A stretch of DNA of 64,000 bases from Streptomyces sp. HNM0574 (GTDB lineage: Bacteria > Actinomycetota > Actinomycetes > Streptomycetales > Streptomycetaceae): assembly GCF_012726235.1 (NCBI RefSeq), contig NZ_JAASAH010000004.1:310001-374000 (forward strand). Reading direction: 5' to 3'. The notes under the pieces were generated by a model, which was not told the origin of the DNA, did no database searches, and saw only the letters and a program-made list of their open reading frames with translations. Below are positions 12,754 to 14,530 of this stretch, piece after piece (position 1 is the first letter of the stretch; the number at the start of each line of letters is the position of its first letter). The position numbers and the translations under genes are program-made.

Positions 12754-14142
12754 TCAGCCCTGTCCGGCGGCGCTGTCCGCGCCGCGGTCCGGGACGCAGC
12801 GGCCGTCCTCGGTGCGGTAGCTCCAGCGGGCGCCGTCGCGCACCAGCTCCTTCACCGCCCGCACGAACCGCTCGATGTGCTCGTCCGGCGTGCCCGCGCC
12901 GAAGCTGACCCGTACCGCGTTGAGCGACTTCTCGCCCGGCGCCGCCTCCGGGGCGCCGCACTCGCCGGGCTCCTGCTCCTCCGCGCCGAGCAGGGTGCGC
13001 AGCAGCGGGTGGGCGCAGAAGAGCCCGTCGCGGACGCCGATGCCGTACTCGGCCGAGAGCGCGGCCGCGAAGTGCGAGCTGTTCCAGCCCTCGACGACGA
13101 AGGAGAGCACGCCCACCCGGTCCGCGTCCTCCCCGAACAGCGAGAGCACCTTGACCTCGGGCACCTCGGCGAGCCCCGCGCACAGCCGCCCGATCAGCTC
13201 CCGCTCGCGCCGCAGCAGCGCGTCGAACCCGGCCTCGGTCAGGGCCCGGCAGGCGGAGGCGATGGCGTACGCGCCGATGACGTTCGGCGAACCGGCCTCG
13301 TGCCGGGCCGCGTTGGTGTGCCACTCGACCTCGACGGCCCCGTTCCCCTCCGCGCCGCGCACCACCTTCCGGCTCGCGCCGCCGCCCGCGAGGTACGGCT
13401 CGGCCTCGCGCAGCCAGTCGGCCCGGCCCGCGAGGACGCCGGCGCCGAAGGGCGCGTACAGCTTGTGCCCGGAGAAGGCGACCCAGTCGACGTCCAGCGC
13501 GGCGATGTCCACCGGGTGGTGCGGCGCGAGCTGCGCCGCGTCCAGCACGATCCGCGCCCCGAACCGGTGTGCCACGGCGGCCAGTTCGCGTACCGGCCAG
13601 ATCTCTCCCGTGACGTTCGAGGCGCCCGTGACGCACACCAGCTTCGGCCCCTCGGGCGCCGCGCGCAGCGCCTCCTCCAGCACGGTCACCGCCTGGCGGG
13701 GCGAGCGGGGCGCGTCGAGGAAGGTCGTGGCACGGCCGCGCCAGGGCAGCAGCGAGGCGTGGTGCTCGGTCTCGAAGACGAACACCCGGGTGCCCTCGGG
13801 GAGTACGGAGGCCAGCAGGTTCAGCGAGTCCGTCGTCGCGCGGGTGAAGACGACCTGGTCGTCCTCCCGGCAGCCGAGGAACTCCGCGACGGTCGCACGG
13901 CTCTGTTCGAACAGGTCGGTGGACAGCTGCGAGAGGTACCCGGCACCCCGGTGCACGCTGCCGTAGTAGGGGGCGTACGCGGCGACGTCGTCCCAGACCT
14001 TCTGCAGCGCGGGGGCGCTGGCGGCGTAGTCGAGTGCCGCGTAGGTGACCTCACCTCCGGTCACGAGCGGCACACGTACGTCACGGCCGAGCACGGAGAG
14101 TGACGAGGTACAGGTAGCGGTGGTCGCGGAAGCGCTGGACAT
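12754..14142 (-). CDS. Class-V PLP enzyme, cysteine desulfurase/selenocysteine lyase-like
   Basis: A protein of 462 residues in the aminotransferase class-V fold. The cofactor Lys is in AFSGHKLYAPFG, the PLP-contacting Asp/Gln pair is in IVLDAAQLAPH, and a Cys occurs at the place of the SufS-type active loop (GLFCAHPLL). It would remove sulfur from cysteine or act on a related sulfur amino acid. The start at 14142 has GGGAGATC upstream. About 270 nt upstream on the same strand lies a SAM-IV riboswitch, which places this gene under S-adenosylmethionine control and argues for a role in methionine or cysteine metabolism rather than general Fe-S assembly. No suf or isc genes adjoin it. Confidence 0.85.
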   Translation of the reverse strand: MSSASATTATCTSSLSVLGRDVRVPLVTGGEVTYAALDYAASAPALQKVWDDVAAYAPYYGSVHRGAGYLSQLSTDLFEQSRATVAEFLGCREDDQVVFTRATTDSLNLLASVLPEGTRVFVFETEHHASLLPWRGRATTFLDAPRSPRQAVTVLEEALRAAPEGPKLVCVTGASNVTGEIWPVRELAAVAHRFGARIVLDAAQLAPHHPVDIAALDVDWVAFSGHKLYAPFGAGVLAGRADWLREAEPYLAGGGASRKVVRGAEGNGAVEVEWHTNAARHEAGSPNVIGAYAIASACRALTEAGFDALLRRERELIGRLCAGLAEVPEVKVLSLFGEDADRVGVLSFVVEGWNSSHFAAALSAEYGIGVRDGLFCAHPLLRTLLGAEEQEPGECGAPEAAPGEKSLNAVRVSFGAGTPDEHIERFVRAVKELVRDGARWSYRTEDGRCVPDRGADSAAGQG

Positions 14143-14314
14143 GGTGATCTCCCGTGGAAAGAGCAGGCGAACGGAACTCGACGCACCCGGTGCCGGCAGG
14201 ACTGCGGCGACCGCGTACGGAGCGGGTGAGGGGGACGTCAACCACCCGAGGGCGGCCGGGAGTTGCCGGCGGCGCCAGGCGGAGGCGTGAGATGAGGAGC
14301 GGGGCGCTGCGGCC

Positions 14315-14335
14315 CTATCGCATTCGCTTGCTCAC
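14315..14335 (-). CDS. Six-codon leader ORF (MSKRMR) below the riboswitch
   Basis: GTG start, stop TAG, encoding Met-Ser-Lys-Arg-Met-Arg. A good ribosome-binding site, GAGGGAG, lies just upstream at about 14342-14348, and the sequence TCCCTC at 14370-14375 (at the 3' edge of the aptamer) can pair with it. It lies 172 nt before the class-V gene. Too short for homology evidence; translation is inferred from the ribosome-binding site and position. Confidence 0.4.
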   Translation of the reverse strand: MSKRMR

Positions 14336-14372
14336 GAGAATCTCCCTCAGACCCAGGACCCCTGGTAGCGAG

Positions 14373-14493
14373 GGATCCGTGCTTGCCGCAGACCTTGCGT
14401 GTCGTGCGGCCCGGTCATCACCCGGGGCACCCCACCACGGAAGGAGGGTTGCCGGACAGCGGGCCGGGGCCTTCATCGCTGTCGCTCGTGACC
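14373..14493 (-). promoter_or_regulatory. SAM-IV riboswitch
   Basis: The minus-strand sequence follows the SAM-IV consensus closely: outer helix GGTCAC with GTGATGACC, inner helix GACAGC with GCTGTC, the core CCGGCAACCCTCC, then GTGGGGTGCCCCGGG, and a 3' part with GCGGCAAGCACGG. It is about 121 nt long, matching the usual size of roughly 120 nt. SAM-IV is found mostly in actinobacteria and senses S-adenosylmethionine, repressing sulfur-amino-acid genes. It precedes the class-V PLP gene, with a six-codon ORF in between. Confidence 0.88.
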
Positions 14494-14501
14494 TGCGAAG
14501 G

Positions 14502-14530
14502 ATTATGGCACAGGGATCCGGGCACGTCAC
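14502..14530 (-). promoter_or_regulatory. Candidate promoter for the SAM-IV leader
   Basis: Minus strand: GTGACG, 17-bp spacer, CATAAT, giving a start near 14495, within a few bases of the first riboswitch base. It overlaps the last bases of the permease gene, so the riboswitch transcript starts inside that gene's 3' end. Confidence 0.55.

Follow-up and report, generated by a model that had tools for sequence, protein, structure and literature searches.

The SAM-IV locus of Streptomyces sp. HNM0574

The DNA analyzed here (the window) is a stretch of 64,000 nucleotides from Streptomyces sp. HNM0574. On its reverse strand, a SAM-IV riboswitch lies behind a permease gene and is followed by a six-codon ORF (the mini-ORF) and by a gene encoding a class-V PLP enzyme. 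The features considered below are the following.

14502-14529, (-): likely promoter by match to the consensus, with the -35 element TGACGT at 14529-14524 and the -10 element CATAAT at 14507-14502
14374-14493, (-): SAM-IV aptamer (Rfam RF00634, 100.8 bits, E = 2.6e-17)
14356-14378, (-): hairpin H1, GGATCCCT/AGGGGTCC, arms 14378-14371 and 14363-14356, from the comparison of 105 loci
14343-14375, (-): candidate helix sequestering the Shine-Dalgarno (SD) sequence, TCCCTCG (14375-14369) with TGAGGGA (14349-14343), 7 bp, mutually exclusive with H1
14315-14335, (-): mini-ORF GTG AGC AAG CGA ATG CGA TAG (MSKRMR), conserved in 76 + 12 spaced loci
14302-14315, (-): hairpin GGGC-CGCAGC-GCCC, whose first pair is formed with the G of UAG, the stop codon, with a pyrimidine-rich tract after it
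12754-14142, (-): class-V PLP enzyme (cysteine-desulfurase-like), with its own ribosome-binding site GGGAG at 14153-14149

The riboswitch, recognized in an earlier note from the sequence alone, is borne out by cmscan: the match at 14493-14374 is full-length, covering positions 1-116 of the model, and its score compares with an Rfam gathering cut-off of 38. It is the only Rfam match in the window and the only SAM-IV copy in the whole genome. As in the RF00634 model, the 3' pseudoknot strand is complementary to the P3 loop, with CCGTG (14440-14436) facing CACGG (14381-14377), as read from the sequence. The same note placed a promoter of the riboswitch inside the permease gene; a promoter-like pair of elements is indeed present, but further downstream, since the stop codon of the permease (14529-14527) lies within the -35 element, and the -10 element follows just past the end of the gene. 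Transcription is expected to start at about 14496. Among the relatives, 41 of 105 loci have a -10-like TANNNT in the 25 nt before the aptamer, mostly at a spacing of 13-15 nt, as compared to 4 of 1463 control windows. The S. lividans orthologue SLIV_26975 is listed with its own 5' end and with SAM-IV in its 5' UTR, and the passages on this leader do not mention the mini-ORF (PMC8079986).

The PLP enzyme matches the NCBIfam model TIGR01979 (SufS family) with an E-value of 3.5e-77, but below the model's cut-off. Its orthologues appear as class-V aminotransferase or cysteine desulfurase in the annotations given for S. clavuligerus (PMC8269248) and S. lividans (PMC8079986). The gene starts with the ATG at 14142-14140, 172 nt after the mini-ORF stop, and a search of this gap for a second, degenerate SAM aptamer found none.

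A conserved six-codon ORF behind the riboswitch

The earlier note identified MSKRMR (14335-14315) as the first ORF downstream of the aptamer and suggested that the riboswitch gates this ORF rather than the enzyme gene. Both the ORF and its distance to the PLP gene are as described there, and comparative analysis strongly supports the order of elements, with a conserved mini-ORF and not the enzyme gene next to the switch. The 80 orthologues that best match the PLP gene, drawn from 84,980 species genomes, all have a SAM-IV core upstream. Together with the window they comprise 76 loci with the mini-ORF and five in which the PLP gene directly follows the expression platform. The start codon of the 76 spaced loci is GTG in 75 cases and ATG in one, whereas codon 4 (CGA), codon 5 (ATG), and the stop codon (TAG) are the same in all of them; the search pattern fixed CGAATG, and the unfiltered sequences contain no spaced locus without it. 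Codon 2 is variable, AAG or CAG predominate at codon 3, and in all but three cases codon 6 is one of CGA, CGC, and CGT.

Of 150 Streptomyces genomes, 132 carry the mini-ORF motif, usually in one copy; in the HNM0574 genome, a search for the same mini-ORF found it only at this place. As a control for bias, the 18 Streptomyces genomes without the strict motif were examined, and SAM-IV is present in 15 of them. Twelve of the 15 PLP-type loci from these genomes retain CGA-ATG-NNN-TAG and three are direct. The peptides are MSKRMC, MSKRMP, MSKRMS, MSRRMS, MIQRML, MTQRML, MSTRMR, MNTRMR, MSNRMR, and MRMRMR; the last of these, in locus L234, is encoded by GTG CGA ATG CGA ATG CGG TAG and contains the CGA-ATG pair twice. 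Thus CGA-ATG-NNN-TAG behind an SD sequence is found in 88 of 88 Streptomyces loci where the PLP gene is separated from the switch (76 orthologous loci and 12 from the motif-negative genomes), these loci being phylogenetically related and hence not independent counts. Other genera of Streptomycetaceae add ATG and TTG starts, and departures from the core in this family are MSKRM* (L182), MMA* (L202), and MQMMR* (L209).

Since the start codon varies only among GTG, ATG, and TTG, and the frame and the stop are fixed while neighboring letters are free, the pattern suggests that the mini-ORF is translated. CGA accounts for 22 of 2371 arginine codons (less than 1%) in the 80 PLP genes and is invariant at codon 4, which implies selection on the codon or its letters and not on arginine alone. 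The conserved letters could also be read as a hairpin AGCG-AATG-CGCT; this was rejected, because one of its pairs is lost wherever codon 6 is CGA, as it is in roughly half of the loci, and because the hairpin is missing from relatives beyond the family. The mini-ORF of the window has no Cys codon, and therefore lacks the run of Cys codons typical of cysteine attenuators; a single Cys at codon 6 occurs in a few Streptomyces relatives only.

Natural variants complete this picture. Eight loci (L004, L015, L041, L059, L079, L225, L229, and L233) have neither the mini-ORF nor the hairpin that follows it, and the PLP gene lies immediately behind the switch. In L041, L079, and L233 the PLP gene begins with GTGAGC exactly where the GTGAGC of the mini-ORF is found elsewhere, as though deletion of the remaining leader had joined the switch to the gene. 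In the spaced loci, the gap between the mini-ORF and the PLP gene ranges from about 60 to 360 nt, which makes coupling by termination-reinitiation unlikely.

The expression platform

The SD sequence of the mini-ORF, GAGGGA (14348-14343), lies within the expression platform downstream of the aptamer, as in riboswitch-uORF leaders of the Mbox and B12 type. H1, with the consensus GGAYCCCT/AGGGRTCC, is found in 98 of the 105 loci; positions 3, 4, and 7 show compensatory pairs, and the GG of H1 overlaps the pseudoknot strand of the aptamer. In the seven loci where H1 is lost, the SD sequence is found directly behind the pseudoknot strand.

The competing helix was in part foreseen: GAGGGA was proposed to pair with TCCCTC (14375-14370), so that SAM could control translation of the mini-ORF. 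The complementarity is real and extends to 7 bp, and the 5' arm of H1 doubles as the anti-SD in about 71 of the 105 relatives, but in the others an SD helix is missing, weaker, or built in another way, and folding of the window does not reveal control by SAM. In partition-function calculations with the pseudoknot strand blocked or free, the accessibility of the SD sequence in the window is 0.29 versus 0.26, no real difference. It is more open in the apo-like fold in 44 loci and less open in 10, and its mean is 0.27 with the strand free and 0.28 with the strand blocked (0.34 versus 0.27 for the full leader), which gives no clear signal. The folding lends weak support to SAM-dependent exposure of the SD sequence. 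By its sequence, the arrangement of H1, SD, and pseudoknot is that of a translational OFF switch, with H1 as a possible anti-sequestor. SAM riboswitches generally repress, and the direction of the response assumed below is deduced from this fact and from the platform layout.

A hairpin fused to the stop codon

A feature absent from the earlier note is the hairpin that starts at the G of UAG. A stem of at least 4 bp from this G can be formed in 103 of 105 loci (98%), compared to 36% of shuffled sequences and 19% of other offsets; for at least 5 bp the values are 74%, 12%, and 8%. The stem varies in a compensatory manner (GGGCC, GGGCG, GGGCT, GAGGC, GCCG, GGCCG) and the loops vary as well; further variants read from the sequences are GGCGC in L230 and GAGCG in L234, where the stem is changed yet intact (GAGCG/CGCTC). 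Pairing of the stop-codon G may be the reason that no stop other than UAG is used. As in cysteine attenuators, the hairpin adjoins a leader ORF in such a way that a ribosome could mask it.

The letters directly after the stem are C/U-rich, and the 70 nt after the hairpin contain 44% C and 24% G. With 4-5 bp and a mixed C/U tail, the hairpin would be weak as an intrinsic terminator, and other pairings compete with it when longer parts of the window are folded. In the Term-seq data for S. clavuligerus, the orthologue CRV15_21540 is reported as a premature transcription unit with SAM-IV, and its decrease in read count is described as among the most extreme; premature ends were defined there between TSS+70 and the start codon (PMC8269248). 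The earlier proposal that the leader peptide acts on downstream transcription fits both this published termination and the hairpin at UAG.

SAM-IV and leader ORFs in other actinobacteria

Of the 297 genomes sampled from the class, 188 contain SAM-IV, with two recurrent layouts: either a PLP or metY-like gene follows at once, or a short ORF comes first. The leader ORFs preceding metY-like genes, which come from several actinobacterial families, are MARSPMRCCCQ, MRASLHPLTRCCCR, MCIRRMCCR, MSCQRMPRR, MRCCPLTRSH, MLCCRNTHR, MTCRMPF, MTCRMRR, MNHHRMRR, and MCRCRMTGVAGA, and in other actinobacterial families such ORFs are often rich in Cys. Wherever they encode Arg-Met (six of six cases), the codons are CGA-ATG, so that this pair is common to the metY leader ORFs of L085, L087, L092, L097, L169, and L170 and to the Streptomyces mini-ORF. 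The window ORF therefore looks like a reduced form of a wider arrangement of SAM-IV with a leader peptide. The stop-fused hairpin is claimed for Streptomycetaceae only, since outside this family a stop hairpin is clear only in L098, L137, and L170, and the remaining loci are not clearly better than shuffles.

Second SAM-IV riboswitches in Streptomycetaceae (L200, L208, L213, L214, and L217-L219) precede leader ORFs that are longer and carry a VDLLRVxSALC-like motif. The one in L200 matches the NCBIfam family NF042934, 'putative leader peptide' (33.9 bits, cut-off 27), and in loci of this type the riboswitch and a leader peptide of the Cys type stand in series. One genus of the family has pairs of SAM-IV aptamers that lie back to back, a few hundred bases apart and divergently oriented.

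G475:C169:14065-14177 and 14393-14498, (-) and (+): divergent SAM-IV pair
G465:C1:1096541-1096651 and 1096796-1096906, (-) and (+): divergent SAM-IV pair
G455:C2:180862-180972 and 181152-181262, (-) and (+): divergent SAM-IV pair

A proposed ribosome-operated attenuator

We consider it somewhat probable that SAM-IV, by means of a translational platform, controls the six-codon leader ORF, which serves as a ribosome-operated attenuator of the PLP gene. The elements of this model, that is, the aptamer, H1, the SD sequence, the ORF frame, CGA-AUG one codon before UAG, and the hairpin at the stop-codon G, come from the comparison of loci; we infer that the mini-ORF is translated, that it responds to SAM, and that transcription terminates at the hairpin.

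At low SAM, the SD sequence would be open and a ribosome would initiate on the mini-ORF. CGA, very rare here, is generally a slowly decoded codon, and the ribosome would be slow at CGA-AUG and at the stop. The ribosome footprint extends about 15-16 nt from the P codon, so a ribosome holding CGA in its P site and AUG in its A site would, with a normal footprint, reach into the 5' arm of the stem, and the leading edge of the ribosome would prevent the hairpin from forming or acting. RNA polymerase would then read into the enzyme gene, to be translated from its own ribosome-binding site. At high SAM, the aptamer pseudoknot would take the GG of H1, and the freed CCCTCG would pair with the SD sequence. 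As no ribosome loads, the hairpin with its pyrimidine-rich tract would form, and transcription would end early, either intrinsically or with Rho. Masking by the ribosome is suggested mainly by the fixed geometry of stop and hairpin. Apart from Arg-Met, the peptide itself is probably unimportant, and AUG may add sensing of the charging of Met-tRNA.

Rho could play a larger role. If no ribosome occupied the mini-ORF, Rho might load on the C-rich untranslated leader, the hairpin only shielding the 3' end from exonucleases. This is rather unlikely in our opinion: the base composition after the hairpin agrees with it, the Mbox-uORF system of M. tuberculosis is described as Rho-dependent (PMC12810186), and stem-loops at the 3' ends of Rho-terminated transcripts are among the subjects discussed in the S. 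clavuligerus Term-seq paper (PMC8269248), but a mini-ORF of this length leaves the C-rich stretch untranslated in either state, and the fusion of hairpin and stop at a fixed spacing is left unexplained.

The codons themselves could be the sensor, with AUG, or Cys codons in relatives, responding to charged Met- or Cys-tRNA and the riboswitch being a second input in series. The Cys-codon-rich leader ORFs of metY-like genes outside Streptomycetaceae (MARSPMRCCCQ, MRASLHPLTRCCCR, MCIRRMCCR, MLCCRNTHR), the use of CGA-ATG for Arg-Met in those ORFs, MQMMR in one relative (L209), and the NF042934 match of a SAM-IV leader ORF all speak for such a sensor. A single AUG, however, would sense poorly, the window ORF is free of Cys codons, and the unusual codon is CGA and not AUG, so we regard this explanation as improbable. 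Finally, that the mini-ORF is a remnant or decoy, its letters an untranslated RNA element and SAM acting elsewhere (on mRNA decay or the enzyme RBS), would agree with conservation beyond the peptide (CGA, UAG) and with the eight loci that manage without the ORF, but we consider it very unlikely in view of a start that varies only among initiation codons and of the variation of codons 2, 3, and 6 within a fixed frame and stop behind a properly spaced SD sequence.

Comparison with known systems

The attenuator model has close precedents, and the relay is less unusual than the earlier note supposed, as riboswitch-gated uORFs are already in the literature for two switches of M. tuberculosis, Mbox and B12. 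SAM-IV with a leader ORF would be a variant of these. In the Mbox-rv1805A-pe20 leader (D'Halluin et al., RNA 2026; PMC12810186), a translational platform of SD, anti-SD, and anti-anti-SD is described as acting directly on a short, conserved uORF, and transcription ends prematurely before the gene is reached; the counterpart of this ending here is the S. clavuligerus Term-seq result. The ligand, the aptamer, and the conserved uORF are different, Rho dependence is shown there, and the passages on that leader present no hairpin fused to the uORF stop. In the B12 riboswitch-uPPE2-ppe2 locus (Kipkorir et al., NAR 2024; PMC11260477), the riboswitch controls a translated uORF needed by the downstream gene, as proposed here for the mini-ORF; coupling there depends mainly on reinitiation after termination at closely overlapping stop and start codons, in contrast to gaps of tens to hundreds of nucleotides in loci of the window type.

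Cys-rich leader peptide attenuators of actinobacteria (Seliverstov 2005, PMC1262725; Canestrari 2020, as cited in PMC13236596; NCBIfam NF042934 and NF042936) are similar in having a short leader ORF upstream of sulfur genes, and SAM-IV precedes such ORFs in relatives. Unlike them, the window ORF contains no Cys codon, has an SD sequence, and stands behind a riboswitch; the leader ORFs of Canestrari are described as leaderless. Direct SAM-IV riboswitches share the aptamer and often an H1-like hairpin with an SD platform, and differ by the absence of a leader ORF between the switch and the class-V PLP or metY-like gene. Our literature search found no paper joining SAM-IV to a leader ORF; earlier remarks are possible in Weinberg 2008 (SAM-IV), D'Halluin 2023, and Canestrari 2020.

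It is conceivable, and we put it forward tentatively, that SAM-IV in actinobacteria is part of a general two-input device, in which initiation (SAM) and decoding (charged tRNA) are converted to a transcription decision through CGA-AUG, the stop, and a terminator-like hairpin, with the six-codon unit as its reduced form in Streptomyces.

Riboswitches are usually described as acting directly on their gene. Here, a very widespread actinobacterial switch would act on a tiny ORF that is kept nearly letter for letter across the genus and whose stop codon is built into an RNA hairpin. This suggests that SAM levels are converted to a ribosome-controlled stop-or-go signal for transcription of the PLP gene. 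The locus offers a small and easily mutated test case both for the conversion of initiation control to transcription control in high-GC bacteria and for the effect of an invariant rare CGA before AUG on the ribosome. In annotation, the targets of SAM-IV have probably been read too simply.
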